Shown: positions 16,934 through 59,332 of the stretch, piece by piece | Numbering within the stretch: position 1 is the stretch's first letter | Layout: each line of letters opens with the position of its first letter | Assembly (NCBI RefSeq): GCF_003691585.1 | Contig: NZ_CP033169.1 | Location: 930,001 to 994,000, forward strand | Source of the DNA: Biomaibacter acetigenes | GTDB lineage: Bacteria > Bacillota > Thermosediminibacteria > Thermosediminibacterales > Tepidanaerobacteraceae | Length of the DNA stretch: 64,000 bases | Reading direction: 5' to 3' | The notes under the pieces: generated by a model | Told to the model about the DNA's origin: nothing | Databases searched by the model: none | What the model saw: the letters and a program-made list of their open reading frames with translations, nothing else | Position numbers and translations under genes: made by a program

Positions 16934-17617
16934 TTAAAAAAGGTTAAGATATTTTGATAGATACAATAATCCCAGTATCACCGGCTGATGGAAGAGATAG
17001 ATGACGAGGGAATACCGGCCCATTTCTGACAATAGATTGGGTTTTAAATCCATGGGCAGAATTCTTTTTCCCCGCATATACACCATTCTATAAAAAATGA
17101 TTCCGAATATGAACACGCCGAGATATGGGAAAAGAGGATAATAGTCGAGGGATGCGAAATCTTTATTCATGAGCCCCAGGGGATACAATTGAGGAGAATT
17201 AACCGTCAACTCATAAAAAATATCTCCGATTATTATAATAGTTATACCTAGCAAAAAAGATATTCCCGTATCTATTTTTTTTAATAAAGGCGAAAGCAAA
17301 TAACTTATACCCATGAAATGAAGTATACCGAACTTTATATACATTTCTCTGTCCAGTAAGAAGGTTATTGCTGTAAGCAGCATGCCGAGGGCAAAGATCT
17401 TGAGCCCTCTTTTTGTTGTCCTTTTGCTGAAATTGGAACTAATCCCGGCCAGAACCATGAACATTATGGCCGAAAGCTTTCCCTCATAGTACCAGAAGCC
17501 CTTAGCATATTCTATATTCATGCCTAAAAAATAATTCAAGTTGAATACCGTATGAAAAATCATCATCAGAAATATGGCAATTCCCCGAAAAAAGTCGATT
17601 TCAACTATCCTTTTCAC
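16934..17617 (-). CDS. HGSNAT/DUF1624-like membrane acyltransferase
   Basis: This 227-residue membrane protein has about seven hydrophobic helices. The opening EIDFFRGIAIFLMMIFHTVFN matches the heparan-alpha-glucosaminide N-acetyltransferase-like (DUF1624) family, with the conserved Asp-Phe-Phe-Arg-Gly and a His in helix 1. A late LVIYLFHQP motif is also typical. Such proteins transfer acyl groups to sugars across the membrane, but bacterial members are mostly uncharacterised. The start is GTG at 17617 behind a GGGGGG site on the minus strand. It is divergent from the PRD regulator. Confidence 0.75.
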   Translation of the reverse strand: MKRIVEIDFFRGIAIFLMMIFHTVFNLNYFLGMNIEYAKGFWYYEGKLSAIMFMVLAGISSNFSKRTTKRGLKIFALGMLLTAITFLLDREMYIKFGILHFMGISYLLSPLLKKIDTGISFLLGITIIIIGDIFYELTVNSPQLYPLGLMNKDFASLDYYPLFPYLGVFIFGIIFYRMVYMRGKRILPMDLKPNLLSEMGRYSLVIYLFHQPVILGLLYLSKYLNLF

Positions 17618-17785
17618 AAAAACCCCCCGTTTTCGTTTTGAATCGGAATCTTAGTGCTTTTTTCTTGCTCAAAACCATTTTATCATATTTGACGTCAATA
17701 GTGTTAAAGTTAATGTCACGTAAATATTCAACAGCATCTGAAGTATAATTTAATTTTGCCACAATAGGTTTGAAATATGTTAGAC

Positions 17786-17814
17786 TTTTCATAAAAGTAA
17801 TACGGGTATATAAT
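17786..17814 (+). promoter_or_regulatory. Putative promoter of the PRD-regulator/GRE cluster
   Basis: TTTTCA (17786-17791) and a consensus TATAAT (17809-17814) are separated by 17 bp, 19 nt before the regulator start codon. Confidence 0.5.
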
Positions 17815-17832
17815 TTAATATAAGAAGAAAGG

Positions 17833-19998
17833 ATGGGCCGATGGAAAATGGATGAAAGGTGCGCACAACTTCTAAATACCATAATTTCGGCCGATAAGCC
17901 TGTTAAGATATCCGAGCTGGCGAAACAATTTAACGTGTCGCCCAGGACTATCCGCTATGACCTGGACAGAATAGATAATTTTTTAATGGACAACAATTTG
18001 CCACAATTGGCGAGAAAACCAAACTGCGGTGTGCAGTTTCCCGGCTCTTTCGAATTAAAAGAAAAAGCCCTATCTTTACTTGAGGGCATTGACAGCTATA
18101 ATTATGTGCTGTCTCCCGAAGAAAGGCAAAAGGTCATCCTGAGCGAACTTTTTCAGGCAAAGGATTATATGACCATAGAGAACCTGGCAGAAATGCTTAG
18201 CGTCAGTCGTGGAAGTGTAATAAATGATCTGAAAAAGGTGAAGGAATGGCTTATAGACCAGAATCTGGAACTTGAATCCTCGCCCAGGTATGGCATAAAA
18301 GTCCTGGGAAACGAAAAAGATCTCCGCCGGGCTGTCGTAAACCTCCTTACCGAAAATGTGGAAATGGAAAAGGCTCTCAACATAATAAAAGCTCCCATTC
18401 ACCGGCGTATAGGTGTGGCGGTGGACCGTCAGCTAAAGAAATTGTTTGAAGATCTGGACATCGCCCCTATAGAAGAAGCTGTGCGCCTGGCGGAAGAACA
18501 ACTGGGGACGATATTTTCCGACGGAGCTTACTCGGGGCTGGTCATACACCTGGCACTGGCTTTAAAGAGGATCCAGTTGGGAAAAGATATTACCATGCCG
18601 AGAGAAGAGCTGTCGGGCCTCGGTCTCACAAAAGAATTCGCCGTAGCGTCAAGTATGGTTAAAAGATTGGAAGAAAGTTATAATGTGAAAATTCCGACGG
18701 ATGAGATAGGATATATTACCATCCACCTGCTTGGCGGCAAAGTTGCGGCCTCAGAAATGTACATGAAAGAAAATTGGGCAGTGCTCCAGACTCTGACCGC
18801 AAAAATCATAGAAGTCATTCAGAGCAAACTGGGGATCGATTTTTCAGCGGATGACGAACTTTACAAGGGCTTGATGGAACACCTGGGGCCCACCATATAC
18901 CGCTTAAAACACGGATTGCCTTTAAAAAATCCCATTCTCGAAGAAATCAAGACAAATTATGAACACATATTTCATGTGGTAAAAGGTGGATTGAAAGCAC
19001 TGGAAGAATATGTAGGAACAAGAATCCCCGATGAAGAAGCAGGATACATCGCCATTCATTTCGGCGCGGCTCTGGAAAGGAGCAAATCCACCGGTGCCAG
19101 GATATACAGGGCGCTGGTGGTCTGCGGCACCGGCATAGGCACGGCCAAGCTGCTGTCATCAAGATTAAGGGTAGAATTTTCCAATATTCAAATAGCTGGC
19201 ACCATAGCGAGCCATCAGGTAAAAGAAAAATTTTTGAATGAAGATAAAAATATTGATCTCATAATATCCACGGTGCCCACTTACTGCGACAGCATGCCGG
19301 AGATAATTGTAAACCCCCTACTGCCGCCGGAGGACGTGGAAAAGATAAACCGGTATATAAACCTTCATCCTCCGAAAAACATTGAAAGAAAACAGGGTTT
19401 TAAGCCTTCTATAGAAGAAATCCTGGCAATTATAGAGAGATACTGTACCATCAAATCTCGCAAAGAACTTATCCGCGCTCTTGCAGAGTATTTGAATTTA
19501 CCGCTTTATGAAAGGTCGAAGGGAGTTGTCAAGCCGGTGTTAAAAGATTTATTGACAGAAAAAACCATAAAGTTAAATGTCGATGCAAAAGATTGGGAAG
19601 AGGCCGTAAGGATAGGAGGTGAGATATTAGTAGAAAACGGTTTTGTAGAACCCCGTTACGTGGATGCCATGGTCAGGACCGTCAGGGAAATGGGTCCCTA
19701 CATCGTCATCGCCCCGGGCATTGCCATGCCCCATGCCCGCCCGGAAGATGGAGTAAAACAGGTCTGCATGAGTTTAATAACATTGAAAGAGCCTGTGGAG
19801 TTTGGGAATATAGACAATGACCCAGTTAAGACGGTGATTTGTTTAGGAGCAGTAGATAACTCTACACATTTAAAAGCGCTGTCGGATTTGATGAATTTAT
19901 TAAACGATGATATAAAACTTGATAGTATAAGAAAATCAAAAGAAATGCGTAATATTTTAGATACAATTCAAATAATAGGTGAGCAAAAGGCTGTATGA
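17833..19998 (+). CDS. PRD-domain transcriptional regulator with EIIB and EIIA domains
   Basis: This 721-residue MtlR/LicR-type activator has, in order: an HTH_11 domain (about 10-60), a second Mga-like HTH (about 105-155), PRD1 (about 190-295, with His in VIHLAL and TIHLLGG), PRD2 (about 305-415, with His in MEHLGP and AIHFGAA), an EIIB-like domain with Cys431 (VVCGTGIGTAK), and a C-terminal EIIA domain with His634 in IAMPHARPEDG. The EIIA resembles the ascorbate/mannitol type and keeps its phospho-histidine. No free EIIA gene exists beside the EIIB and EIIC genes downstream. The domain may therefore both sense and serve that PTS. Met6 is an alternative start. Confidence 0.88.
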   Translation: MGRWKMDERCAQLLNTIISADKPVKISELAKQFNVSPRTIRYDLDRIDNFLMDNNLPQLARKPNCGVQFPGSFELKEKALSLLEGIDSYNYVLSPEERQKVILSELFQAKDYMTIENLAEMLSVSRGSVINDLKKVKEWLIDQNLELESSPRYGIKVLGNEKDLRRAVVNLLTENVEMEKALNIIKAPIHRRIGVAVDRQLKKLFEDLDIAPIEEAVRLAEEQLGTIFSDGAYSGLVIHLALALKRIQLGKDITMPREELSGLGLTKEFAVASSMVKRLEESYNVKIPTDEIGYITIHLLGGKVAASEMYMKENWAVLQTLTAKIIEVIQSKLGIDFSADDELYKGLMEHLGPTIYRLKHGLPLKNPILEEIKTNYEHIFHVVKGGLKALEEYVGTRIPDEEAGYIAIHFGAALERSKSTGARIYRALVVCGTGIGTAKLLSSRLRVEFSNIQIAGTIASHQVKEKFLNEDKNIDLIISTVPTYCDSMPEIIVNPLLPPEDVEKINRYINLHPPKNIERKQGFKPSIEEILAIIERYCTIKSRKELIRALAEYLNLPLYERSKGVVKPVLKDLLTEKTIKLNVDAKDWEEAVRIGGEILVENGFVEPRYVDAMVRTVREMGPYIVIAPGIAMPHARPEDGVKQVCMSLITLKEPVEFGNIDNDPVKTVICLGAVDNSTHLKALSDLMNLLNDDIKLDSIRKSKEMRNILDTIQIIGEQKAV

Positions 19999-20023
19999 CC
20001 CTTATAGAAATGAGGTGGTTTTA

Positions 20024-22423
20024 ATGGATAATAGAATTTTATCTGAGAGAATAAAGAGATTAAAAGATGAAGTCGTGTCAATAAAACCAAAAATATGTAT
20101 TGAACGTGCAAGATTAATAACTGAATCTTATAAAGAGACCGAGTCGTTACCAATGGTTATGAGAAGAGCCAAAGCACTAGAGAAAATTCTTTTGAACATG
20201 TCAATATATATATCCGAAGGGGAGTTGATAGTAGGTAACCAAGCAAGCAAACCCAGGTCGGCTCCCATTTTCCCCGAATATTCATGGGATTGGATAGTAG
20301 AAGAAATCGATAGTTTTGATAAACGTCCTAGCGATAGGTTTGAAATTTCAGAGGATGACAAAAAAGAATTATTACGTATTTTGGAGTATTGGAAAGGGAA
20401 AACAGTCAAAGATAGGGTTCTTGCTACACAGACTGAAGATGTTCTAGAAGATAGAAAAATCGGAGTCTTAGGTTGGGAAGGTAATGTAACAGCCGGACAA
20501 GGACATATAGTAGTAGACTATGAAATGGCACTTAACAAAGGGTTTAAAGGTATTATTGAAGATAGTCGGGAGAAATTGAAATCACTAAATCTATCAGACC
20601 CTGAAGATTTAAGAAAAAAACCTTTTTATGAAGCTGTAATTATTGCATTTAACGCAGGTATACAGTTTGGAAAAAGGTATGCAAATCTAGCCCAAAAATT
20701 AGCGTGTGAAGAAACTAACCCAATAAGGAAAAAAGAATTAGAGGCGATTTCTGAAATATGTAATTGGGTTCCCGAGAATCCTCCCAGGAATTTTAAAGAA
20801 GCTATTCAAATTATATGGTTTGTTCAATTAATACTACAAATAGAAAGCAACGGGCACTCCATTTCTCTTGGGAGATTCGACCAGTACATGTATCCATATT
20901 ATAAAAAAGATATAGAAAAAGGTATTTTGACAAAAGAAGAGGCACTGGAGCTTATTGAATGTTTTTATATAAAACTTTTTTCTGTAAATAAGATTAGGCC
21001 CTGGTCTCATACCCGATTTGTATCAGGTTATCCCACTTACCAAAACTTGATAGTCGGCGGTCAGACAAAAGACGGCAGAGATGCTACAAATGAACTTTCT
21101 TATCTTTGCTTGGATGCGTTGGCAGATATAAGATTATCAGAACCCAATTTCTATGTAAGATACCATGAAAACATGCCAAAAGACTTTTTAAAAAAATGTA
21201 TAGAGGTTATTAAAATAGGTTTTGGTATGCCAGCTCTAGTTAATGATAAAGTAATAATTCCTTCTTTAATGAACCGGGGAGTAACATTAGAGGATGCCAT
21301 GAATTATTCCACAATGGGTTGCCTCGAAGTACAGGTTCCGGGTAAATGGGGGTATAGAGCTAATGGGAAGAGTAAATTTAACCTATTGAAAATATTGGAA
21401 CTTGCTTTAAATAATGGTGTAGACCCCAGGACGGGGATTCAACTATGCCCAGGTGAGGGAAATCTAACAGACTTTAAATCATTTGATGATGTCATGAAGG
21501 CGTGGGAAAAACAACTAAAGTTTTTTATGGAGTTGCAGGTGACTGCAGATAACATTAACGACCTGGCCATGGAAGAACTTGCCCCGGATGTCTTTTGTTC
21601 GGCACTCGTTCAAGATTGTTTGGGTAGAGGTAAGACCCTGATGGAAGGTGGAGCGGTTTATGACATGATGAGCGGATGTCAAGTAGGCGTAGCAAATGTG
21701 GGCAACTCTCTATCCGCTATCAAAGAATTAGTTTTCGATAAGAAAGTTATTTCGCTGGAAGATCTGGATAAAGCTTTAAAGAACAATTTTGAAGGAATCG
21801 AAGGTAAAAGAATACAGGAATTGCTTATAAACCGGGCGGCCAAATATGGCAACGATGATGACAGTGTAGATTTAATTACTAAAGAGGCTTTTGACATTTA
21901 TGTAAATGGTATTGAAAACTATAAAAATACTCGTTATGGCAGGGGACCAATAGGAGGAATCTTCATTCCGGCTACAGTAACAATTTCCGCCAATGTTCCT
22001 TCAGGCGCAGTAGTAGGCGCAACTCCTGACGGAAGAAAAGCGGGAGAACCTGTTAATGACGGAGTTTCACCTGTTCATGGAACAGAAAAACATGGTCCCA
22101 CCGCAGTAATAAAGTCTGTGACAAAGCTATCTACATTGCTAATGACCGGTGGCCAGCTTTTAAATATGAGATTTAACAAGACCATGTTAAACAGCGAAGA
22201 AACTATAGAAAAGTTTATGGCTTTGATTAGAACATTTTTTGATCGTTATGGGTGGCATGTTCAGTTTAACATGATATCTTCTGAAGTTCTTAAAGAAGCA
22301 AGAAGGAATCCTGAGAAGTATAAAGATCTAGTAATTAGAGTTGCAGGTTATAGTGCTGTTTTTGTGTCATTGGATCCTACAGTGCAAGAAGATATTATTA
22401 ACAGGATGGAATATCAGTTGTAG
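20024..22423 (+). CDS. Glycyl radical enzyme (eliminase/dehydratase or sugar-phosphate lyase type)
   Basis: This 799-residue glycyl radical enzyme has thiyl Cys433 in MGCLEVQ. Glu435, two residues on, is the general-base position seen in dehydratases and lyases. Radical Gly775 lies in RVAGYSA, 24 residues from the end. It lacks the Cys-Cys pair of pyruvate formate-lyase, so PFL activity is unlikely. ATG 20024 follows GAGGTGG. The upstream GTG at 19979 overlaps the regulator gene and is rejected. The enzyme lies in a PTS operon with its own activase, so its substrate is likely a phosphorylated sugar or polyol brought in by the PTS. Candidates are 1,5-anhydroglucitol 6-phosphate-type substrates or a polyol; this is an inference. 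Confidence 0.88.
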   Translation: MDNRILSERIKRLKDEVVSIKPKICIERARLITESYKETESLPMVMRRAKALEKILLNMSIYISEGELIVGNQASKPRSAPIFPEYSWDWIVEEIDSFDKRPSDRFEISEDDKKELLRILEYWKGKTVKDRVLATQTEDVLEDRKIGVLGWEGNVTAGQGHIVVDYEMALNKGFKGIIEDSREKLKSLNLSDPEDLRKKPFYEAVIIAFNAGIQFGKRYANLAQKLACEETNPIRKKELEAISEICNWVPENPPRNFKEAIQIIWFVQLILQIESNGHSISLGRFDQYMYPYYKKDIEKGILTKEEALELIECFYIKLFSVNKIRPWSHTRFVSGYPTYQNLIVGGQTKDGRDATNELSYLCLDALADIRLSEPNFYVRYHENMPKDFLKKCIEVIKIGFGMPALVNDKVIIPSLMNRGVTLEDAMNYSTMGCLEVQVPGKWGYRANGKSKFNLLKILELALNNGVDPRTGIQLCPGEGNLTDFKSFDDVMKAWEKQLKFFMELQVTADNINDLAMEELAPDVFCSALVQDCLGRGKTLMEGGAVYDMMSGCQVGVANVGNSLSAIKELVFDKKVISLEDLDKALKNNFEGIEGKRIQELLINRAAKYGNDDDSVDLITKEAFDIYVNGIENYKNTRYGRGPIGGIFIPATVTISANVPSGAVVGATPDGRKAGEPVNDGVSPVHGTEKHGPTAVIKSVTKLSTLLMTGGQLLNMRFNKTMLNSEETIEKFMALIRTFFDRYGWHVQFNMISSEVLKEARRNPEKYKDLVIRVAGYSAVFVSLDPTVQEDIINRMEYQL

Positions 22424-22451
22424 TAGAAACAAATGAAGGGAGGTGAAGTAA

Positions 22452-22718
22452 ATGAAATTTGTAACGGTATGTGGATGTGGCCTGGGTACCTGTTTACTGT
22501 TAAAAATGACTGCTGAAAATGCACTTAAACAATTAGGTGTTAAAGCAGAAGTGATTCATAGTGATCTTGGTAGCGCTACATCGATTGATTGTGATATGTT
22601 TATCATCACGACGGACATGGAAAATCAATTTAAAGCCGCAAATAAAAAATATGTAACCATAAAAAATGTTGCAGATATAAATGAGATGAAGCAAAAATTA
22701 GAACCACACGTAAAATAA
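22452..22718 (+). CDS. PTS EIIB component, ascorbate (Ula/Sga) family
   Basis: Cytoplasmic phosphocarrier of 88 residues. Cys7 starts the P-loop-like VCGCGLGTC, which corresponds to the AVCGNGQGSS loop of UlaB, followed by the LLLKM helix. Two further cysteines (C9 and C14) in the loop are unusual and might be redox-sensitive. It passes phosphate from EIIA to the sugar in EIIC, encoded 33 nt downstream. The ATG follows GGGAGGTG. Confidence 0.85.
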   Translation: MKFVTVCGCGLGTCLLLKMTAENALKQLGVKAEVIHSDLGSATSIDCDMFIITTDMENQFKAANKKYVTIKNVADINEMKQKLEPHVK

Positions 22719-22751
22719 CCTTAAATTATAAAATTACGAGGAGGTTATTGT

Positions 22752-24035
22752 ATGGATGTTTTTAAATTTTTAGCAACGCAAATATTAGGTCAACCGCCTA
22801 TACTTGTGGGACTAGTTGCATGTCTCGGATTGATCGTTCAGAGAAAACCAATTCATGCTATAATATCCGGGACCATGAAAACAGTAGTAGGATTTTTAAT
22901 TCTAGTTATAGGAGCAGTTACAATTGTCAATGTTTTATCTCCGATAGGTCCATTATTGGAAAATGCTTTTGGCTTTAAGGGAGTAGTACCGAATGATGAA
23001 GCCATAGGTGCAGTAGCCTTAATGCAATATGGTAGTGAAGGCGCCCTAGTGATGGTTGTTGGGTTTTTAGTAAATATTTTAGTAGCCCGTTTTACGAAAT
23101 ATAAATATATATATCTGACCGGTCATCATCTTTTATACACAGCACTATTAATTACAGTTCTTTTAAAAGTTCATTTAAATCTATCGGGTTTTCCTTTAAT
23201 TATCGTAGGAGGAATTATTTTAGGTATATACTGTCCATTAACAATTGCTCTGGTCCAACCTTATATGAAAAAAGTGACAGGCGGCGCACCTATAGCTTAT
23301 GCTCATTCCACAAATTTGGGAGCATTTTTAGGGGGATTTTTAGGACAATATGTAGGTAACCCGGAAGATAGTACTGAGAATATTAAACTACCCGAATGGC
23401 TTTCATTCTTTAGGGATACTACCTTATCTACTGGTTTTACTATGATATTGATATTTGTTGCAATAATGTTAATAGTGGGCCCTATTGCGGCGGCTAAACA
23501 AGTTGCCGGTGGTCAAAATTGGTTAATCTGGGCCATTATGCAAGGGTTACAGTTTGGAGCAGGTGTGACTGTACTGCTATCAGGCGTTAGAATGCTCATA
23601 GCCGAAATAGTTCCTGCATTTAAGGGATTTTCAGAGAAAATCGTTCCTGACGCTCTTCCTGGCCTGGATTGTCCCGTAGTTATGCCATATGCTCCAACAG
23701 CATGGATATTGGGATTCCTGATCAGTTTTCCAATAGGTGTAATTCTCACGTTTGTTATGGCTGGAATGAATTTTAAATATCTATTAATAGCTGGTGTAGT
23801 TCCGCACTTTTTTGCCAGTGGTCCGGCCGCCGTATTCGGAAATGCAACGGGTGGTAAAAAAGGAGCTATTTTAGCCGCCGTTGTATCAGCGGTACTTATA
23901 AGCTTCGGAAACGCAATGCTAATTCCGTTGACAGGTCCTCTTGCCAATAGCGGTACGACTTGGGGTGAAATGGAATACGGTATATGGGGAACATTGTTTG
24001 GATATGTAGTTAAATTTATAGGACGAATGTTTTAA
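22752..24035 (+). CDS. PTS EIIC permease, ascorbate (UlaA/SgaT) family
   Basis: Integral membrane sugar channel of 427 residues with about ten hydrophobic helices. The opening LGQPPILVGLVACLGLIVQRK and a GTMKTVVGFLIL segment are typical of UlaA-type EIIC proteins. With the EIIB gene upstream it should import and phosphorylate a polyol or sugar-acid-like substrate. The family also handles substrates other than ascorbate. No EIIA gene is adjacent. The operon continues after a long hairpin with the DUF362 gene. Confidence 0.85.
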   Translation: MDVFKFLATQILGQPPILVGLVACLGLIVQRKPIHAIISGTMKTVVGFLILVIGAVTIVNVLSPIGPLLENAFGFKGVVPNDEAIGAVALMQYGSEGALVMVVGFLVNILVARFTKYKYIYLTGHHLLYTALLITVLLKVHLNLSGFPLIIVGGIILGIYCPLTIALVQPYMKKVTGGAPIAYAHSTNLGAFLGGFLGQYVGNPEDSTENIKLPEWLSFFRDTTLSTGFTMILIFVAIMLIVGPIAAAKQVAGGQNWLIWAIMQGLQFGAGVTVLLSGVRMLIAEIVPAFKGFSEKIVPDALPGLDCPVVMPYAPTAWILGFLISFPIGVILTFVMAGMNFKYLLIAGVVPHFFASGPAAVFGNATGGKKGAILAAVVSAVLISFGNAMLIPLTGPLANSGTTWGEMEYGIWGTLFGYVVKFIGRMF

Positions 24036-24063
24036 AATAACTTTGGGTAAATAAAAAATTCTT

Positions 24064-24112
24064 AGTGAGGTATTATCTTGGAAGGTTCATATTTGAAAGA
24101 TAATACCTCACT
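24064..24112 (+). terminator. Long perfect hairpin after the EIIC gene
   Basis: A 16-bp perfect stem (24064-24079 with 24097-24112) and a 17-nt loop are followed by ATATTTAA rather than a strong T-run. It may be a partial terminator or mRNA-processing site separating GRE/PTS from DUF362/activase expression. Confidence 0.55.
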
Positions 24113-24214
24113 ATATTTAATACTGTATATAGCTTAAATATTAAAAATTGAGATATTGATAATATATCGTGGTTTGATACGATTATTAAGATATAATCGG
24201 AGGTTCAGTCGTAA

Positions 24215-25456
24215 ATGAATTCATCATTGGTAGCAATTAAAAAGAAAAGAAATAAAGAAACAATTAAAACTGTTGTTAGAGAGACAATTAATTTATTAGG
24301 GGGAATAAATCAAGTTGTTTCACCCGGAAACGTTGTTTTAATTAAACCCAATGTATTGGCAGGGAAAGATGCTAGCACAGGTGCCACGACGTCTCCGGAA
24401 ATTGTGGGGACAATAACCAAAATGTGTTATGAAGCCGGTGCTAAAAAAGTCATAATTGCCGAAAGCTCCAATTGGGGAATCAACACTTTTGAAGCATTTA
24501 AAGCCTGCGGTTATTTTGAAATGGCAGAAAAAGCAGGGGCAGAATTACTAGACTTGAAAAAAGATGAAATTGTAGAACGGTTTATTGACGGTTATGTCCT
24601 TAAGAAAGTTAGAATACCTAAAACTATTTTAGACGTTGATACGGTGATAAATATTCCGGTACTGAAAACTCACAGCATGACTAAAGTTACATTGAGCTTA
24701 AAAAATGTGGCGGTTGGGATTTCTACAGATGATGACAAGCAAAGATGTTTACATCATATAGGAATATTTCCGGCCCTTTCGTCAGAGATGTCAAAAAAGG
24801 GGTCCTTTTTAGATTATTCTATTGCAGATATAAACATGATATCTCGTTCAGAGTTGGTTATCATCGATGGTTTGATTGGATTACAAGGTCTCGGTGCACC
24901 ACTGTTAGGAAAACCGGTAAAATCGAATATAATAATTGCAGGATTTAACAGAGTATCTGTTGATGCAATTGGTTCTAAAATAATAGGATATGAACCATCA
25001 GAAATAAATCATATAAAACTTGCGGCTGACAAAGGTTTAGGAGAAATGGATATTGAAAAACTGAAAATAAGAGGAGAAAATTTAAGTGATAGCATAATAA
25101 ATTTCGAAAAATCATTCCTTCCTGATATAACTTATCCTTATGATAATATTGATGTTGTATGCGGTGGAGGGTGCGAAGCGTGTCGGTCTACACTTAATTA
25201 TATTTTAATAAGGCATAAAGAGCAATTAGAAAGTTTAGGCATACCTATTACCATATACTTGGGGAAAGACATAGAAATTAAAAAGCCCAAAAAAGAAAAG
25301 CGTTTATATGTCCACTATGGAAACTGTGCAGGTGAACTAATTTACGGTGGGTGTTTTGTCCCCGGGTGCCCACCAAGGTCTCGAAGGCAATTCTTTCAGG
25401 CCATAGGCGCTTTAGATCTTTATAAAGAGGATGAAGGTTTGCATTCAAATCGCTAA
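24215..25456 (+). CDS. DUF362-family protein with C-terminal cysteine motifs
   Basis: This 413-residue protein has a DUF362 domain over about residues 25-300 (VLIKPNVLAG, VINIPVLKTHSMTKVTLSLKN). The C-terminal part lacks a standard ferredoxin module. It carries CxxxCxxC (C316/C320/C323) and later C371, C380 and C385, which could bind an Fe-S cluster. No reaction is established for most DUF362 proteins. Its place between a glycyl radical enzyme/PTS set and the activase, 16 nt before the latter, suggests an electron-donor or maturation role, or an enzyme acting on the product. The ATG follows CGGAGG. Confidence 0.7.
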   Translation: MNSSLVAIKKKRNKETIKTVVRETINLLGGINQVVSPGNVVLIKPNVLAGKDASTGATTSPEIVGTITKMCYEAGAKKVIIAESSNWGINTFEAFKACGYFEMAEKAGAELLDLKKDEIVERFIDGYVLKKVRIPKTILDVDTVINIPVLKTHSMTKVTLSLKNVAVGISTDDDKQRCLHHIGIFPALSSEMSKKGSFLDYSIADINMISRSELVIIDGLIGLQGLGAPLLGKPVKSNIIIAGFNRVSVDAIGSKIIGYEPSEINHIKLAADKGLGEMDIEKLKIRGENLSDSIINFEKSFLPDITYPYDNIDVVCGGGCEACRSTLNYILIRHKEQLESLGIPITIYLGKDIEIKKPKKEKRLYVHYGNCAGELIYGGCFVPGCPPRSRRQFFQAIGALDLYKEDEGLHSNR

Positions 25457-25472
25457 GTAAGGACGGTTAAAC

Positions 25473-26396
25473 ATGAGTATAATTCAAAAACATGAAGGAA
25501 TAATCTTTGATATACAGCGGTACAGTATTCATGACGGTCCGGGTATAAGAACAGTTGTATTTCTGAAAGGTTGCCCGCTGAGATGTCTTTGGTGCTGCAA
25601 CCCCGAGTCCCAATTGACAAATCCCCAATTGAGTTTTATTCAAAGTAAATGTATAGGTTGTCTGGAATGCATTAAAATATGTCCAAATAAGGCAATACGT
25701 TTTGACAAGGAAAAAGGATTTTTAATTGATTACAAACTGTGCGATATGTGTGGAAGATGCTCTGATGTTTGCTATCCAGGTGCAAGAGTAATTATAGGGA
25801 AAAAAATGAGTGTTGACGAAGTCATTGCGGAGGTTATTAAAGACAAGAGTTTTTATAACCGTTCGAACGGGGGAGTTACTCTTTCCGGTGGAGAAGTGCT
25901 TCTACAGTGGGGTTTTGCCAAAGAGATATTAAAAAAATGCAAAGAATTGAATATAAATACCGCTATAGAAACCTGCGGGTATTGTAAGTGGGAATATTTT
26001 ACTGAGGTTTTAGAATATGTTGATTTAGTCTTATATGATTTAAAACATTTGGATAGCGCCGAACATAAAAGACTAACCGGCGTTGATAATCAATTAATAT
26101 TAGAGAATGCCGCAAAAGTTGTTAAAAAGGGCAAGGAAATGATCATAAGGGTACCGCTGATACCCAGTTTGAATGATTCAAAAGATAATATTATGATGTT
26201 AGTAGATTTTGTTTCGACACTCGAGAAAGTAAAAGAGATAGATTTATTGCCTTACCATCAACTAGGAGTATCAAAGTATAACCAGATTGGCCAGACTTAT
26301 AAATTAAATGAAATTAACCCACCTTCGAAAGAGAAAATTAACGATATAAAAAGATATATCGAAAACCGGGGATTTTTAGTTAAAGTTGGGGGATAA
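25473..26396 (+). CDS. Glycyl radical enzyme activase (radical SAM)
   Basis: Radical SAM enzyme of 307 residues that should install the radical on Gly775 of the enzyme at 20024-22423. The SAM cluster motif is C34/C38/C41 (GCPLRCLWC). A ferredoxin-like insert follows with two 4Fe-4S motifs (C60/63/66/70 and C90/93/96/100), the arrangement of dehydratase-type activases rather than the shorter PFL activase. TLSGGEVLLQ binds SAM. The SIHDGPGIRT string precedes the cluster as expected. It is the last gene of the cluster and is followed by a terminator. Confidence 0.93.
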   Translation: MSIIQKHEGIIFDIQRYSIHDGPGIRTVVFLKGCPLRCLWCCNPESQLTNPQLSFIQSKCIGCLECIKICPNKAIRFDKEKGFLIDYKLCDMCGRCSDVCYPGARVIIGKKMSVDEVIAEVIKDKSFYNRSNGGVTLSGGEVLLQWGFAKEILKKCKELNINTAIETCGYCKWEYFTEVLEYVDLVLYDLKHLDSAEHKRLTGVDNQLILENAAKVVKKGKEMIIRVPLIPSLNDSKDNIMMLVDFVSTLEKVKEIDLLPYHQLGVSKYNQIGQTYKLNEINPPSKEKINDIKRYIENRGFLVKVGG

Positions 26397-26445
26397 ATTT
26401 GAGAGATTATCACGTTTCCTAAAGCATCTCAATGATGATCCGAAA

Positions 26446-26487
26446 GCGAATGAACCATCTCACAGCACGTTCATTCGCACTTTTTTA
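26446..26487 (+). terminator. Terminator after the GRE-activase gene
   Basis: A 10-bp stem GCGAATGAAC/GTTCATTCGC (26446-26455 with 26469-26478) is followed by ACTTTTTTA. Confidence 0.8.
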
Positions 26488-26570
26488 TGTACTTAATTTA
26501 GTTAGCATTTGAAAAGTGCAGTTTTTAATCTTATCCCTTTTTTACCGGACCTTGATAACTAAATCTTTAC

Positions 26571-26803
26571 TCATTTATTTTCCTTATCCTGCCATTTTTC
26601 AGCAGATTTGAGCCATAATTTTGCTAACTTGCTGACATTGTGGATGAAAATGGATAGATTAACCCATACGCCGGTACTTTCACCATCAGAATAGACATAC
26701 ATCAAGACCATATTTTCTTTTTAATAGACCAATGATGGCCTCACCGCCGGAACGCCACCGTATTAATCTTTTAAACCAGTGCTGGCGTTCATGCTACCGC
26801 TTC
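26571..26803 (-). pseudogene. Transposase C-terminal remnant
   Basis: On the minus strand one frame encodes IRWRSGGEAIIGLLKRKYGL and then stops. A second frame continues with STGVWVNLSIFIHNVSKLA and ends at TGA 26573-26571. Together they match the last 75 or so residues of a DDE transposase of the IS4/IS5-like group, with the start missing and one frameshift. It marks an old insertion next to the end of the GRE cluster. The rest of this gap (26488-26570 and 26804-26960) holds nothing recognised. Confidence 0.7.
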
Positions 26804-26973
26804 ATTCAGCCAGCTGGGGAGGGTGAGTGTTTTGTTTATGCTTTTAATGTATTTACGAAAGAGCTTGTATAAGAGTCTAAAGGCCGGCGGATGTAAATTT
26901 TTATTAAGTCTGTCAGCAGGAAAATACCGACTGTATGTAGAAAAGTAAGGAACCAGGGAAGGAGGTTTATATT

Positions 26974-27732
26974 ATGTTAGAACTTTTTAAAAATCTTCCA
27001 CCGATTTATCTTGGAATTACATTAAGCATGCTGGCGGGTATGGCAACAGGTTTGGGGGCTCTGCCGCTTCTTTTCATCAGAAAGAGATTTTCCGGCGGCA
27101 TAATCGATGCATCCCTGGGGTTTGCAGCGGGCGTGATGCTGGCTGCTACGGCGTTCAGTCTGGTGCTGGCTTCCATAGAAGAGGGAGGCATAATTCCGCT
27201 GATTGTCGGAATGACAATGGGAGTTTTATTTGTGGATCGCATGGATAAAATCATTCCCCATGACCATTTTGTCAAGGGACATGAGGGGCCGGGCATAGGT
27301 CGCCTGAGGAAAATATGGCTGTTTGTTTTTACCATAATCATACATAACTTTCCCGAAGGTCTGGCGGTGGGGGTGGGAGGATTTTCAAAGCACGCTTATT
27401 CTCTGGCTTTTGCCATTGGGGCGCAAAATATCCCTGAAGGTCTTGCAGTGGCAGCCGCTCTTGCAGCAGCTGAATATAAAGTCGGTTATGCCGTATTGAT
27501 AGCATTTCTTTCAGGCCTGGCGGAACCTGTGGGAGGGATATTGGGAGCGGGGCTGGTGGGCATATCCTCTTCCATATTGCCCTATGCCCTGGCCTTTGCG
27601 GGAGGTGCCATGCTGTTTGTCATCAGCGATGAAGTTATACCCGAAACCCATTCCGGAGACCATCAACGATTAGCTACATTTTCGCTGGTTGCAGGTTTTA
27701 TTTTAATGACCATATTGGATACTCTGCTTTGA
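26974..27732 (+). CDS. ZIP-family divalent metal transporter
   Basis: Membrane protein of 252 residues with about eight hydrophobic helices. The HNFPEGLAVGVGGF motif in helix 4 and QNIPEGLAVAAAL in helix 5 supply the metal-binding His/Glu residues of the ZIP family. It should import Zn2+ or another divalent metal (Fe, Mn) into the cytoplasm, as ZupT-like proteins do. Metal selectivity cannot be read from sequence. The ATG follows GGAGG. It is monocistronic. Confidence 0.88.
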   Translation: MLELFKNLPPIYLGITLSMLAGMATGLGALPLLFIRKRFSGGIIDASLGFAAGVMLAATAFSLVLASIEEGGIIPLIVGMTMGVLFVDRMDKIIPHDHFVKGHEGPGIGRLRKIWLFVFTIIIHNFPEGLAVGVGGFSKHAYSLAFAIGAQNIPEGLAVAAALAAAEYKVGYAVLIAFLSGLAEPVGGILGAGLVGISSSILPYALAFAGGAMLFVISDEVIPETHSGDHQRLATFSLVAGFILMTILDTLL

Positions 27733-50428: not shown

Positions 50429-51964
50429 ATGATAGTAAATGGAGAAAACTTAACTATTCAAGATATAGTAAAAGTTGCGGTAATGGGAGAAAAGGTACAA
50501 CTTTCACCCGAATCCATACAAAAGATCCAAAAATCCAGGGAGTATGTGGAGCAAATCATACAAAAAGACGATATAGTTTACGGTGTGACAACAGGATTTG
50601 GGAAATTCTGTAATGTGGTCATATCTCCGGAAGATACCAGAAAGCTCCAGCTAAATCTTATTAGGAGCCATTCCGTAGGAATCGGTGAGTATTTCCCTGA
50701 AGAAGTGGTGAGGGCTATGATGCTTTTAAGGATAAATGCTCTTGCCAAAGGGTATTCGGGTATAAGGCTTTCTACATTGCAAACTTTGCTGGATATGCTA
50801 AATAAAGGGGTAATACCCCGGGTGCCAAGTCAGGGGTCACTGGGAGCCAGTGGCGACCTTGTTCCTTTGGCACATATGGTTCTTGTAATGATCGGTGAAG
50901 GTGAAGCAGTGTATAAAGGAGAAGTCTTGCCCGGGGAAAAGGTGATGGAAATAGCAGGAATAAAGCCCATATCTCTGGAAGCTAAGGAAGGCCTTGCCCT
51001 CATCAACGGCACTCAGGCTATGTCGGCAGTGGGGAGTTTGGCCCTGGCTAAAGCTGTCAATCTTTCCAAAACTGCCGATATTTGTGGGGCTTTGAATCTT
51101 GAGGCTTTAAACGGCATCATAGACGCATTTGATGAAAAGGTACAGGCGGTAAGGCCACATTCCGGACAAAAGTTATGCGCCGCCAACATAAAAAAGTTGC
51201 TGGAAGGCAGTGAATTTATTACCAGACAGGGTGAGTTTAAAGTCCAGGATGCTTATGTTTTGCGCTGCATGCCCCAGGTCCATGGAGCAGTGAAAGATGC
51301 CCTCTCCCATGTGAAAAATGTTATAGAAATTGAAATAAATTCCGCCACTGATAATCCCCTTATTTTCCCCGATGATGGCAGAGTAATTTCCGGCGGAAAT
51401 TTCCATGGAGAACCTGTGGCCATAAATATGGATTATATGGGTATAGCCGTTTCAGAACTAGCCAGTATATCCGAGCGTCGCATAGAGCGTCTGGTGAATC
51501 CCAACTTAAATGAAGGCTTGCCCGCTTTTTTGACCGGAAACGGCGGCCTAAACTCAGGCCTCATGATCAGCCAGTACACCGCAGCATCGTTGGTATCGGA
51601 AAATAAGGTTTTAGCACACCCGGCCAGCGTTGATTCCATCCCTTCCTCGGCAAACCAGGAAGACCATGTTAGCATGGGTACTATAGCGGCAAGAAAGGCC
51701 ATGAAGATAGTGGAGAACACCCAAAATGTGCTGGCCATCGAGCTTTTATGTGCAACACAGGCTATAGATTTGAGAAGAGCAAAGATGGGTCGCTCTACAA
51801 AACTTGGCAAAGGGACCCAGATCGTATATGAATTGGTGAGAAAACAAGTGCCCCAAATAGAAGAAGACAGAGTATTGAGTGAGGATGTTAAAACCCTGGC
51901 AAAGTTGGTAGATAGTGGGCAATTGGCTAGAGCCGTAGAAGAATGGATAGGTGAATTGAGATAA
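50429..51964 (+). CDS. hutH: Histidine ammonia-lyase
   Basis: This 511-residue enzyme deaminates L-histidine to urocanate. The self-formed MIO prosthetic group comes from Ala140-Ser141-Gly142 in GSLGASGDLVPLAHM. The early YGVTTGFGKF carries the catalytic Tyr, and SSANQEDHVSMGTIAARKA is the later signature. Length and motifs are those of authentic HutH. ATG 50429 follows GGGAGGT. The DapF-like gene begins 53 nt after the stop, so the two are probably co-transcribed. Confidence 0.96.
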   Translation: MIVNGENLTIQDIVKVAVMGEKVQLSPESIQKIQKSREYVEQIIQKDDIVYGVTTGFGKFCNVVISPEDTRKLQLNLIRSHSVGIGEYFPEEVVRAMMLLRINALAKGYSGIRLSTLQTLLDMLNKGVIPRVPSQGSLGASGDLVPLAHMVLVMIGEGEAVYKGEVLPGEKVMEIAGIKPISLEAKEGLALINGTQAMSAVGSLALAKAVNLSKTADICGALNLEALNGIIDAFDEKVQAVRPHSGQKLCAANIKKLLEGSEFITRQGEFKVQDAYVLRCMPQVHGAVKDALSHVKNVIEIEINSATDNPLIFPDDGRVISGGNFHGEPVAINMDYMGIAVSELASISERRIERLVNPNLNEGLPAFLTGNGGLNSGLMISQYTAASLVSENKVLAHPASVDSIPSSANQEDHVSMGTIAARKAMKIVENTQNVLAIELLCATQAIDLRRAKMGRSTKLGKGTQIVYELVRKQVPQIEEDRVLSEDVKTLAKLVDSGQLARAVEEWIGELR

Positions 51965-52017
51965 CCCTGGCAAAATTGCCGGACAATTTTTTTATAACAG
52001 ACTTAAGGAGGAAGCTT

Positions 52018-52812
52018 ATGAAACTAAATTTCATCAAAATGAGTCCCTGCCAAAATACCACTGTATTCATCACAGAATATTGCCCAAAGGAATATTATAT
52101 TGCAGTTGCCAGGGAAGTAATGAACTATGACAGTTTATGTGCCGAACAGGTGGGGTTTATCGTACCGCCTAAAAACGCAGATTCGGTTTTGGGCATGGAG
52201 ATGGCCGGAGGTGAATTTTGTGGCAACGCCAGCCTTTGCGCAGCCGTCTATGTGAGATATAGTGGAATTTATGAAAAAGATGATTTCTTTATAGATGTGT
52301 CAGGTGCAAGTGACCCTTTAAGATGTCATGTGGAGGAAAAATCCAATTATGTTTATAGCGCAGAATGTGAGATGCCTTTTCCCATTTCGGTTAAAGATGC
52401 AAAGATTGAAATTAACAAGAAAAAGATAAAAGGGAGTATCATAGATTTTAAGGGAATATCACATTTTATATTTAAATCATGGCGCGATTTTAATGATTAT
52501 GATAAAGTTATGGATCTCATTAAATCAAAAATCGAATCTGATGCCATCGGTATTGTCCCGTACATTGAACTGGGGAAAGGTGAATACGAGATAAAGCCTT
52601 ATGTCTATGTTAGGTCCACCCAAAGCCACGTTTTTGAAAAAGGTTGTGGTTCGGGGAGCATGGCATTGGGGGTATACCTAAAAAAATATATGGGTTTAAG
52701 AGGTAAAATCGGGGTAATGCAGCCGGGAGGTACTATAGGTGTTGAAGTAGGAGATAAAAACTTTATATCTAGCGATGTTAAGATAACTTGTGAGGGGTCT
52801 ATATTGATATAA
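52018..52812 (+). CDS. DapF-fold amino acid epimerase/racemase, possibly histidine racemase
   Basis: This 264-residue protein has the two-domain diaminopimelate-epimerase fold. The cofactor-independent catalytic pair is Cys68 (GEFCGNASLC) and Cys210 (EKGCGSGSMALG). It differs from lysine-pathway DapF, and no dap genes are near. Known DapF-fold relatives include histidine racemases (the CntK type of metallophore synthesis and a fusobacterial enzyme). Linkage to hutH makes D-/L-histidine interconversion a good hypothesis, but proof is lacking. ATG 52018 follows AAGGAGG. A broken copy lies at 46160-46475. Confidence 0.75.
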   Translation: MKLNFIKMSPCQNTTVFITEYCPKEYYIAVAREVMNYDSLCAEQVGFIVPPKNADSVLGMEMAGGEFCGNASLCAAVYVRYSGIYEKDDFFIDVSGASDPLRCHVEEKSNYVYSAECEMPFPISVKDAKIEINKKKIKGSIIDFKGISHFIFKSWRDFNDYDKVMDLIKSKIESDAIGIVPYIELGKGEYEIKPYVYVRSTQSHVFEKGCGSGSMALGVYLKKYMGLRGKIGVMQPGGTIGVEVGDKNFISSDVKITCEGSILI

Positions 52813-52826
52813 ATAGACAAGTAATA

Positions 52827-52867
52827 AAAATAATATTAGCAAAAATATGCTGTTTTAATATTATTTT
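52827..52867 (+). terminator. AT-only hairpin after the DapF-like gene
   Basis: A 12-bp A/T stem (52827-52838 with 52856-52867), perhaps extended by GCA/TGC. It ends in TTTT, so it may end the hutH transcript. Confidence 0.45.
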
Positions 52868-52878
52868 ATATGAAGGAT

Positions 52879-52906
52879 TTGCAAGATTTTTTATTTAATA
52901 TATAAT
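52879..52906 (+). promoter_or_regulatory. Promoter of the YjiH-hutU operon
   Basis: TTGCAA (52879-52884) and a consensus TATAAT (52901-52906) with a 16-bp spacer, 48 nt before the start codon. Confidence 0.5.
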
Positions 52907-52953
52907 CCAGTTCATTATTTTATTAAAAAAATATAAAATTTGGAGGGATTTAT

Positions 52954-54240
52954 ATGGATAGGTCCAAAGCTGCGTGGAAGTTTGTTGTTTACAGTGTTAT
53001 CGGATTTTTTATGTTCTTTATCCCTATCAAGCTTAATGGAAGTTCTTCTATTCCTCTTGATCATGTGGTTACAGGGTTAAGGCAAGCTCTTCCTGGACTC
53101 GCACTACTTTACGGTCTTATTGTTACAATCATCGGCGGTGTAATGCCATGGCTCAATGGGACTTGGAAAAAATCCACGGTAGATAGGGTATTTTCGGTGT
53201 TCAAGGTTGCGGGCATTGTTATAGCCTTTATGGTATATTTAAAGATAGGGCCCGCATGGATGATGGACCCGGATATGGGGCCGTTTCTTTTCAATAAATT
53301 GGTGGTACCGGTGGGTATGATAGTACCAATAGGGTCCGTATTCCTGGCTTTTTTGGTTAGCTATGGCCTTATGGAATTTGTGGGAACCCTCTTAAGACCA
53401 GTAATGCGAACTATTTGGAAAACACCTGGAAGATCTGCGGTAGATGCCGTTGCATCTTTCGTTGGAAGTTATTCGATAGCTTTATTGATAACAAATAAAG
53501 TGTTCAAAGAAGGTAAATATACTATCAAAGAAGCGGCCATAATTGCTACCGGATTTTCCACGGTTTCTGCAACCTTTATGATAATAGTAGCAAAGACCCT
53601 TAAAATAATGGATATGTGGAATATGTATTTCTGGGCAACTCTTGTTATTACATTCGTAGTAACTGCCATTACCGCCCGCTTGTGGCCGCTGGCTGCCAAG
53701 TCAAATGAATATGTGGGTGAAGCCTCTCCTGAAAAAGAGGAAAAAGGCAACCTTTTAGCTAGGGCGTGGGATGAAGCCCTAAAAGTGGCCGATGTAGCTC
53801 CAGGGATTTGGGATAATATCGTAAAAAATATAAAAGATGGTTTCAGGATGGCTACATCAATACTACCGACCATAATGTCTATAGGACTTCTTGGGCTTGT
53901 GCTTGCAGAATTTACACCAATATTTGATTGGATAGGATGGATATATTATCCCTTTACGGCACTATTGCGCATTCCTGAACCTTTCCTGGCGGCCAAAGCT
54001 TCTGCCGTAGAGGTAGCGGAAATGTTCCTCCCTGCACTATTAACAGTAAGCGCGCCTCTGGCGACAAAGTTCGTGGTAGCTGTAGTATCCGTATCAGCAA
54101 TACTATTTTTCTCGGCTTCGATACCGTGTATACTTTCTACCGAAATCCCCTTGACCATAAGCGAGATAATGGTAATATGGATAGAAAGGACCATACTCTC
54201 GATTATATTTGCCGGTGTACTGGCGATGATATTGTTTTAA
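52954..54240 (+). CDS. YjiH-family membrane protein, candidate hut transporter
   Basis: Polytopic membrane protein of 428 residues with about ten to eleven helices of the nucleoside-recognition ('gate') type. VDAVASFVGSYSIALLITNKVFKEGKYT and a matching late segment EVAEMFLPALLT form two related halves. YjiH-type genes often sit beside histidine-degradation genes, as here 25 nt before hutU, which suggests transport of histidine, urocanate or a product. No experiment known to me fixes the substrate. The ATG follows GGAGGG. Confidence 0.75.
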   Translation: MDRSKAAWKFVVYSVIGFFMFFIPIKLNGSSSIPLDHVVTGLRQALPGLALLYGLIVTIIGGVMPWLNGTWKKSTVDRVFSVFKVAGIVIAFMVYLKIGPAWMMDPDMGPFLFNKLVVPVGMIVPIGSVFLAFLVSYGLMEFVGTLLRPVMRTIWKTPGRSAVDAVASFVGSYSIALLITNKVFKEGKYTIKEAAIIATGFSTVSATFMIIVAKTLKIMDMWNMYFWATLVITFVVTAITARLWPLAAKSNEYVGEASPEKEEKGNLLARAWDEALKVADVAPGIWDNIVKNIKDGFRMATSILPTIMSIGLLGLVLAEFTPIFDWIGWIYYPFTALLRIPEPFLAAKASAVEVAEMFLPALLTVSAPLATKFVVAVVSVSAILFFSASIPCILSTEIPLTISEIMVIWIERTILSIIFAGVLAMILF

Positions 54241-54265
54241 AATATAACCAAAGGAAAGGAATCGC

Positions 54266-55909: not shown

Positions 55910-55919
55910 GGTGAGCGGG

Positions 55920-57143
55920 ATGGACGATTTTATACGAGATTATGCCAGAAAAGGTTTCCTCAGGGACTTACTTTTCAACGATATCACCAGCGTAAAAGAT
56001 ATATGGGAACTGCAAAAAAAATTAAATATAGAACATTTACCCAATACAGTCATGGTGGTAACTATAGACAACTATTATTCGGATACAGTAAACAAGAGTG
56101 AAATCCAAAAGCAAGCAATAAGGATAAGAGTGTACGAATGCTTGAAAAGATTTGCGGAAAAGTTTGATGCACTGGTAGTAAATATGGAAGAGAACTTGCT
56201 TGCAGTATTGTTCTGGATAGAAAAAGATAAGGCATCAGAAGTTGAATACAGCATGAACACAGGTGCTTGTTTGAAAGAACAGGTGGAAAAGGAGACCGGG
56301 ATATCTGTTTCAATAGGTATAGGTCGGCGGTATAAAGACATACTGGACCTGCACATATCATACAAAGAAGCCCTTTCAGCCTGCCATCATAAATTCTTCC
56401 TGGGCAAAAGCCAGGTGATCCATATCGACAATGCGCTCCCCTTTTCAGAAGATCTGGGACTTTATTCCGTGGAAGTGGAATCCCAGCTCTCAGTGCGGGT
56501 GCTGGCCTGCGATGAGGAAGGAGCCTATAACATACTCCGGGAGTTGATGGGAGACACCCTGCAGCAAAAGGCTATAAATCCTTTAACAATGAAGACCCGG
56601 CTCATAGAGATTATAACCACTCTAATGAGGGTATCGGTGGAGGCCGGGGCCGACCAGGAAAATCTTGCGGTGTTGAGCGGCAAATGCGTGGAAGGAATTT
56701 TAAAGAGTGATACAATGACAGCCCTTCAAAGTTTGATGCAACAAGCCATAAAGGGTATCATTCAGGAAGTCTACCAGGGCCGCAAGCGCATGAACCTCGA
56801 AGTCTTTGAAAAGGCTTTAAATTATATCCGAGATAATTTCAACAGGCCCATTACCCTGGAGGAAGTGTCTGACCATGTCCATATAAGCCCTTATTACTTT
56901 AGCCACGGTTTCAAAAACTTTACCGGCATGAACTTTATTGACTATGTTACAAAGCTTCGCATAGATGAAGCCAAAAAGCTGCTTCTTACCACTGACATGA
57001 ACGTAGGAGATATAGGAAAGCAGGTGGGATATTATGACCCCAACTATTTCGGCAGGGTTTTTAAGAACTTGGTGGGAATGCCCCCCAGCAAATTCAAGGT
57101 GAGCAAAAAAGTCCGCCTGGATAGAATATTTTCCGAAGGTTAA
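55920..57143 (+). CDS. AraC-family regulator with degenerate GGDEF-like N-domain
   Basis: This 407-residue regulator has a C-terminal AraC/XylS DNA-binding domain (about 305-395) with two helix-turn-helices, NRPITLEEVSDHVHISPYYF and MNVGDIGKQVGYYDPNYFGR. The N-terminal half has an ISVSIGIGRRYKDILDLHISYKEAL-type segment resembling the degenerate GGDEF/PucR-like sensing region of YesN-type proteins. Located between two urocanase genes, it probably activates the hut operon in response to urocanate or histidine. ATG 55920 follows GAGGTGA; a GTG at 55911 is an alternative. Confidence 0.82.
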   Translation: MDDFIRDYARKGFLRDLLFNDITSVKDIWELQKKLNIEHLPNTVMVVTIDNYYSDTVNKSEIQKQAIRIRVYECLKRFAEKFDALVVNMEENLLAVLFWIEKDKASEVEYSMNTGACLKEQVEKETGISVSIGIGRRYKDILDLHISYKEALSACHHKFFLGKSQVIHIDNALPFSEDLGLYSVEVESQLSVRVLACDEEGAYNILRELMGDTLQQKAINPLTMKTRLIEIITTLMRVSVEAGADQENLAVLSGKCVEGILKSDTMTALQSLMQQAIKGIIQEVYQGRKRMNLEVFEKALNYIRDNFNRPITLEEVSDHVHISPYYFSHGFKNFTGMNFIDYVTKLRIDEAKKLLLTTDMNVGDIGKQVGYYDPNYFGRVFKNLVGMPPSKFKVSKKVRLDRIFSEG

Positions 57144-57221
57144 ATTAATTTTAATATAGAATATGATGGTAGAAAACAGATTATTTTTGTTTGAAATATA
57201 TTAAGGGGAGGGAGTTTTTGG

Positions 57222-59258: not shown

Positions 59259-59264
59259 TTTCTA

Positions 59265-59290
59265 CCCGGCGGGCACCGCCACCCGCCGGG
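59265..59290 (+). promoter_or_regulatory. G+C-rich hairpin after the long urocanase gene
   Basis: A 9-bp stem CCCGGCGGG/CCCGCCGGG (59265-59273 with 59282-59290) and an 8-nt loop. Only a weak T-run follows, so it is more likely an attenuator or mRNA stabiliser inside the operon. Confidence 0.6.
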
Positions 59291-59332
59291 ATTACTTTAA
59301 TACAATAAAATGCTTTAACTGGAGGAATGAAA

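Follow-up and report, generated by a model that had tools for sequence, protein, structure and literature searches.

Among described systems, those closest to the protein studied here are the LarA (Lar_N, DUF2088) family and, for its gene neighbourhood, a group of glycyl radical enzymes (GREs). In LarA proteins, as laid out in parts of PMC7583248 and in section 2.5 of PMC12611868, roles have been assigned to a lysine that tethers the nickel-pincer nucleotide (NPN), to a nickel-ligand histidine and to catalytic histidine. DUF362 and DUF2088 share one Pfam clan, CL0471, according to the relevant part of PMC11770544, and that paper, the only one with both the nickel-pincer cofactor and DUF362 in the open-access literature searched, takes DUF362 as an outgroup in the parts concerned. 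The sections of PMC11796402 concerned report that about 15% of the genomes analysed, many of them from cyanobacteria, have larB, larE and larC without larA, and they consider unknown NPN-binding proteins likely. DUF362 itself is a large known family, uncharacterized in function as far as the open-access literature shows; in that literature we found no statement on DUF362 proteins with NPN residues or with an Oxidored_q6-like domain, and none on DUF362 together with a glycyl radical. On the GRE side, section 5.1 of the review PMC12441222 reports that E. coli YbiW and PflD cleave the PTS-made 6-phosphates of 1,5-anhydroglucitol and 1,5-anhydromannitol to 1-deoxyfructose 6-phosphate.

The window, that is, the whole stretch of DNA that was analysed, comprises 64,000 nucleotides (positions 930,001 to 994,000 of contig NZ_CP033169.1) of the single-contig, 3.40-Mb genome of Biomaibacter acetigenes. 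On its plus strand lie, in this order, a PRD regulator with a PTS EIIA domain (17833..19998, Pfam), a GRE (19979..22423), a PTS EIIB of the ascorbate type (22452..22718) and a UlaA-type EIIC (22752..24035), both assigned from profile matches, then the DUF362 protein that we call P0001 (24215..25456, 413 amino acids), and finally a GRE activase (25473..26396), a radical SAM protein with a ferredoxin insert (TIGR02494, 389.7 bits). The GRE has Cys448 in GCLE and Gly790 in RVAGYSA, which we take to be the marks of a GRE eliminase, and its closest PDB relatives are 6xs4 and YbiW (8yjn, 8id7), at 774-775 bits. We infer its substrate by analogy, from its kinship with YbiW and PflD and from the PTS genes. 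The locus resembles the YbiW/PflD 1,5-anhydrohexitol 6-phosphate lyase systems in having PTS, GRE and activase together, and it differs from them in its UlaA-type PTS and in the added DUF362 gene. The open reading frame coordinates confirmed that the P0001 stop codon is followed after 16 nt by the start of the activase frame. The intergenic region between the EIIC and DUF362 genes contains a perfect 16-bp inverted repeat (24064..24112, plus strand), whose RNA hairpin (-25.1 kcal/mol, z -6.2) has no T-run. This hairpin could give the DUF362-activase pair a different expression level, and since it sets the pair apart, P0001 and the activase may share one. An Rfam search over positions 17000-27000 of the window gave no match. 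Further along, a likely histidine degradation cluster (50429-61534) comprises genes for an aromatic amino acid lyase, a urocanase and an amidohydrolase.

P0001 scored 153.9 bits with PF04015 (DUF362; cut-off 24) over residues 41-254, which places it in the family; at E <= 1 no other Pfam family matched, neither a ferredoxin family nor the Radical_SAM profile. Its cysteines are found at residues 71, 98, 178, 316, 320, 323, 371, 380 and 385. The last six are where the original prediction had located them, as an unusual C-terminal set with the CxxxCxxC spacing of radical SAM clusters. For comparison we used at least 80 DUF362 loci, recovered by a contig scan with one peptide pattern that favoured one subclass. 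Of these 80, 27 span at least 20 kb and 13 are shorter than 8 kb. A DUF362 reading frame was called on the plus strand in 79/80, and 75 of these fit the cysteine motif by regular expression. The exception was L095, whose DUF362 gene the caller dropped in favour of a longer antisense frame. Of the four called frames that did not fit, L056 and L094 are cut by contig ends, and L092 and L117 have another spacing as judged by eye. An alignment set (A2) combined P0001 with relatives from 65 of the 80 listed loci. In it, C320, C323, C371 and C385 were invariant (66/66), as they had been in an earlier set of P0001 and 22 proteins (23/23), whereas C380 (25352..25354) was cysteine in just 5/66 and C316 (25160..25162) in P0001 alone (1/66). 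The proposed conservation therefore held for the former four positions and failed for C316 and C380. The CxxxCxxC spacing is private to P0001, and the radical SAM reading built on it hinges on C316, with the conserved set being CxxC, GxC and GCPP. A radical-SAM-like site was accordingly rejected, as C316 is absent from all 65 aligned relatives and no Radical_SAM profile match was found at E <= 1.

The CxxC-GxC-GCPP pattern of the four invariant cysteines is that of NuoB and of the small subunits of [NiFe] hydrogenases, from which we expect a single [4Fe-4S] cluster. Its predicted ligands are Cys320 and Cys323 of the CxxC motif (25172..25183), Cys371 of GxC (25325..25327) and Cys385 of GCPP (25367..25369), all on the plus strand, and we regard a single cluster on these residues as likely. 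They fall within a small C-terminal domain (residues about 308-402; 25136..25420, plus strand) that appears to be related to Oxidored_q6 (PF01058), the family of [NiFe] hydrogenase small subunits, NuoB/NDUFS7 and MbhJ. When a profile of the C-terminal segment was run against all PDB sequences, [NiFeSe] hydrogenase small subunits came out on top (E 0.002), followed by MbhJ (E 0.0089) with the four cysteines in register; lower rows were mainly NuoB/NDUFS7 and then unrelated proteins such as hexokinase and copper chaperones, and no match in this search passed E 0.001. The Oxidored_q6 profile matched 31/66 members weakly at E <= 1 (best 0.0011) and gave no match at that threshold to the segment of P0001 itself, yet the Oxidored_q6 ligand order is present in 66/66. 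Folded alone, the domain gave a predicted model with pLDDT 81.1, whose arrangement may resemble the flavodoxin-like one of Oxidored_q6 proteins. Its best structural matches were weak, with Z scores of 5.2-6.4, the highest (6.4) being MbhJ and a formate hydrogenlyase chain, in a range where CheY-type chains reach 5.9, and its best Foldseek match had E 0.076. Unlike the Oxidored_q6 proteins, the P0001 domain has only about 95 residues, is without a Pfam match and is joined to a LarA-type domain. Taken together, these data point to a small Oxidored_q6-like domain with a sequence kinship that is weak but consistent. The original prediction was borne out in so far as P0001 is a DUF362 protein of a GRE operon whose cysteine module is not a ferredoxin, and an iron-sulfur site is very likely.

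The remainder of P0001 (residues about 7-303; 24233..25123, plus strand) was predicted to adopt the LarA fold. The full-length model (pLDDT 87.9, pTM 0.88) was compared with known structures and matched 12 entries with Z scores of 15.9-18.9 (216-230 residues aligned, rmsd 2.7-3.5), the next row having a Z of 5.8. By their titles, eleven of these entries are lactate racemases, malate racemases or LarA-like proteins, and the other is 4nar, an untitled Thermotoga protein. Foldseek with the same model returned 19 matches at E <= 0.001, again of these kinds. On the strength of this model the main domain is predicted to have the LarA fold, although the structural alignments with LarA types have only 10-15% identity and the Lar_N profile (PF09861) did not match P0001 at E <= 1. 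Similarly, a PDB sequence search with P0001 alone gave nothing at E <= 1, and one with the full-length A2 profile gave 22 matches, none of them LarA. We consider the two-domain architecture of P0001 highly probable.

To compare the residues of the LarA site, we aligned 53 DUF362 proteins, from both the four-cysteine and the ferredoxin kinds, together with the three LarA proteins of the window genome. The position of the LarA tether lysine (Lys183) is lysine in 53/53 DUF362 proteins, that of the nickel-ligand histidine (His199) is histidine in 53/53, and that of the catalytic His173 is histidine in 52/53. In P0001 the corresponding residues are Lys163 (codon 24701..24703), His180 (24752..24754) and His153 (24671..24673), all on the plus strand, the last aligning with the catalytic histidine known as His174 in L. 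plantarum LarA and His173 in LarA Ip. DUF362 proteins therefore appear, by alignment, to have kept the tether lysine and the nickel-ligand histidine of LarA. Of the racemase-type pair of catalytic histidines they appear to have kept one, as the position of the other is occupied by Asn in P0001 and, in 35/53, by Ser, Arg, Asn, Asp or Thr. The ribose-binding Asp and phosphate-binding Arg of LarA were likewise not conserved across the 53 proteins. When 19 diverse DUF362 proteins were compared by hhalign with the three LarA proteins (E 6.8e-5, probability 63%), the two histidine pairs and the lysine pair were in register; a first comparison, with the narrower set A2, had a probability of 9% and ended before the lysine. 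The families also meet at the profile level: of five PF04015 matches in the window genome, one is a LarA protein that exceeds the DUF362 cut-off with 25.8 bits, and a DUF362 protein of this genome, with a ferredoxin insert, has a weak Lar_N match (19.8 bits, below cut-off). Those DUF362 proteins in which an 8Fe ferredoxin is inserted or forms the C-terminus share the main domain and the Lys and His residues with P0001 and differ from it in the kind of Fe-S module.

The window genome has a LarC (profile search), a LarE (352 bits) and three full LarA genes, and a LarB-like reading frame, named by eye, lies two genes upstream of LarC. We scored co-occurrence in 388 genomes of the phylum (DUF362 at E <= 1e-10, Lar_N at E <= 1e-20), with kinship and genome size uncontrolled. 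Because the two families cross-match, genomes with weak matches were counted as negative, namely 8 for DUF362 (E > 1e-10) and 51 for Lar_N (193/244 kept). LarC was found in 220 genomes, DUF362 in 292 and Lar_N (LarA) in 193. LarC accompanied DUF362 in 202/292 genomes and occurred in 18/96 genomes without it, giving an odds ratio of 9.7 that ignores kinship. The association persisted among the LarA-negative genomes, where LarC was found in 71/113 with DUF362 and 14/82 without (odds ratio 8.2, kinship again ignored); put differently, 71 of the 85 larC-positive, larA-negative genomes of the sample carry DUF362. In the same 388 genomes the odds ratio for LarA and LarC was 3.0, and a GRE control, taken from a slightly different draw of 398 genomes with handles above 398 removed, gave 1.6 for GRE and LarC. 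For the four-cysteine class, defined as genomes with a listed match reaching about residue 386 or beyond and with at most four candidates scored per genome, the counts among the matches listed were 54/69 versus 166/319 (odds ratio 3.3), with 15 of the 69 having no LarC.

No LarC match was found in 90/292 DUF362 genomes, 42 of which are without LarA too, or in 58/193 genomes with a strong LarA match, some of which have several LarA genes (G046, G073, G061). LarC as scored is for this reason not a strict marker. The 58 LarA genomes may have a divergent or missed LarC, or LarA proteins without cofactor. Among 14 control genomes, DUF362 was found in 5, LarC in 6, both in 4 and LarA in 2. Synechococcus elongatus and Haloferax volcanii had LarC and DUF362 matches and no LarA, Corynebacterium glutamicum and Methanocaldococcus jannaschii had a LarC match with neither DUF362 nor LarA, and Bacteroides ihuae had DUF362 with no LarC match. 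The LarE family search matched all 14 controls, 5 of them above cut-off, and LarE was dropped as a marker since it discriminates poorly. We also looked at 181 loci, of which 132 are DUF362 loci and many have short flanks: none showed a larC or larE gene, and 2 had a LarA gene. In the window genome, a LarA gene (L185) and a ferredoxin-insert DUF362 gene (L192) lie together at contig positions 3316081-3319002, their Pfam matches about 1.5 kb apart.

Since P0001 joins a LarA-type domain, with tether lysine and metal histidine, to a one-cluster domain, its architecture suggests a redox enzyme. One-cluster domains of that kind carry electrons from nickel sites in hydrogenases. A redox role for P0001 also fits with the ferredoxin modules carried by other DUF362 proteins. 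Our preferred reading, to which we assign a probability of roughly 0.5, is that P0001 is a soluble two-domain redox enzyme in which a LarA-type domain holds a cofactor at Lys163/His180 and is coupled to a [4Fe-4S] domain. A hydride from a substrate alcohol would pass to this cofactor, NPN or a relative, and would leave as single electrons through the [4Fe-4S] cluster, with a ferredoxin or flavodoxin as acceptor, unless the reaction runs in the reverse direction. In this operon the site of reaction would be a hydroxyl or keto group of a sugar phosphate used or made by the GRE, for example 1,5-anhydrohexitol 6-phosphate or 1-deoxyfructose 6-phosphate. We hold it doubtful that the substrate or product of the GRE is the substrate of P0001, against which counts that the link is seen in a single operon.

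NPN as the cofactor of P0001 is the boldest step of this reading, and we hold it less likely than not. It rests on the three aligned residues, the LarA fold and the co-occurrence with LarC; the missing ribose and phosphate contacts and the DUF362 genomes with no LarC count against it. The same absences would suit a LarA-fold enzyme that holds a cofactor other than NPN, or a metal, at the Lys/His site, with the [4Fe-4S] cluster serving as redox partner or being itself catalytic. The lysine and two histidines in register with LarA and the strong LarC co-occurrence argue against such an enzyme, which we see as possible and on the unlikely side.

The original prediction placed P0001 in GRE biochemistry, as an electron donor to the activase or as acting on the GRE product, and it relied on homologues being linked to GREs. 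Such linkage was sought from both sides. No DUF362 gene was present in any of 17 loci around the closest GRE genes listed, including the second GRE locus of the window genome. In tblastn searches with nine DUF362 queries against 49 GRE loci, six queries (P0001, L004, L007, L012 and L058 among them) had no match, and the ferredoxin-bearing queries produced short matches alone (40-179 amino acids), which we took for the ferredoxin inserts of activases. From the other side, a GRE lay within 10 kb in 4/80 DUF362 loci listed and was adjacent in none. Among the matches listed, the nearest same-contig DUF362-GRE pair outside the window, picked by eye, is 97 kb apart. In L052 (Petroclostridium), the locus of the best DUF362 relative among the matches listed, a GRE lies 6.6 kb downstream, separated by other genes. 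Another genome of the genus has two GRE loci, at 55% and 51% identity, and a P0001 match that is weak and of ferredoxin type. A second locus of the window genome itself (L168, contig positions 606001-626000) has a regulator, PTS, activase and a GRE, the last 55-56% identical to that of the window, and no DUF362 gene. We found no clear orthologue of P0001, the best identities among the matches listed being 39% and 34%, and a plasmid search gave two distant matches. In the loci covered, linkage of the DUF362 class to genes for GREs or activases is thus not conserved, and the arrangement in the window is unusual, since such linkage is scarce in DUF362 loci, in GRE loci and in the same-genus genome. 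The link on which the original prediction relied is therefore largely absent among homologues, and a general role as a GRE accessory protein, sought from both sides and found nowhere else in these loci, was rejected.

These neighbourhoods would also be expected if P0001 were a general DUF362 protein that owes its operon position to chance. Clustering of 79 neighbourhoods found no partner gene that recurs across the class, in a procedure whose frame calls drop genes beneath a longer antisense frame and may miss neighbours, and the same-genus genome combines GRE loci with a weak, ferredoxin-type P0001 match. The gene is nevertheless on the same strand as its neighbours, at short spacing, and placed between the EIIC and activase genes, and we consider chance placement unlikely. 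Two sets of DUF362 surroundings may be noted. One locus (L095, 2620-12339) has in this order, as judged by eye, a four-cysteine DUF362 gene, a MutL-type ATPase-like gene, a glutamate mutase E-like gene, a LysR gene, a dehydrogenase gene, a GRE and an activase. Another group (L057, L064, L066, L092 and relatives) encodes DUF362 proteins of about 400 amino acids with ACTGCRNTV-like motifs; their neighbours, also named by eye, include 2-oxoacid:ferredoxin oxidoreductase-, leucine dehydrogenase- and HpaB-like genes, which hints at amino acid fermentation.

If P0001 were instead a carrier dedicated to reducing the adjoining activase at its radical SAM cluster, the shared strand, the 16-nt spacing, the likely [4Fe-4S] domain and the hairpin that divides these two genes from those of the GRE and the PTS would all be in keeping with it. 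The GRE survey speaks against such a carrier on each count, from the 17 loci with no DUF362 gene to the nearest listed pair at 97 kb and the 4/80 loci with a GRE within 10 kb. A carrier would also have no need of a LarA-type pocket, yet the lysine and nickel-ligand histidine are kept in 53/53 proteins. Electron delivery to the activase, as originally proposed, thus found no support, the activase having iron-sulfur residues of its own in an eight-cysteine insert (cysteines 60-100, with Fer4 matches in Pfam) besides its CxxxCxxC. We consider a dedicated carrier improbable, lean slightly towards a redox enzyme over a carrier, and conclude that P0001 probably catalyses a redox step rather than powering the neighbouring activase.

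Least probable is a hidden-redox epimerase like LarA with a structural [4Fe-4S] domain, perhaps one that serves the GRE by turning the phosphates of 1,5-anhydroglucitol and 1,5-anhydromannitol into each other: the LarA fold, the sugar gene neighbourhoods described for single-histidine LarA proteins in section 2.6 of PMC12611868 and the use of the two epimers by E. coli YbiW and PflD reported in part of PMC12441222 are in its favour, but the sole catalytic histidine of DUF362 differs from that of the single-histidine LarA proteins, which according to section 2.5 of PMC12611868 retain the one that DUF362 has lost, and the differing kinds of Fe-S modules in DUF362 proteins speak for electron transfer.

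Returning to the preferred reading of P0001 as a redox enzyme, the LarA fold, the kept Lys and His residues and the co-occurrence with larC make the DUF362 family, as judged from sequence comparisons, a candidate for the reported non-LarA users of NPN. DUF362 would not be the whole answer, because C. glutamicum and M. jannaschii have LarC with neither DUF362 nor LarA; the family may nonetheless have the missing users of this orphan nickel cofactor among its members. To our knowledge, the nickel-pincer cofactor is known only for hidden redox, in racemisation and epimerisation. We therefore offer, as a speculation that we rate as rather unlikely, that the missing clients of NPN outside LarA are DUF362 proteins and that those of the four-cysteine class, P0001 included, are NPN oxidoreductases in which the hydride leaves as electrons through a hydrogenase-type [4Fe-4S] cluster. 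If true, this would be open redox chemistry with the nickel-pincer cofactor, beyond hidden redox.
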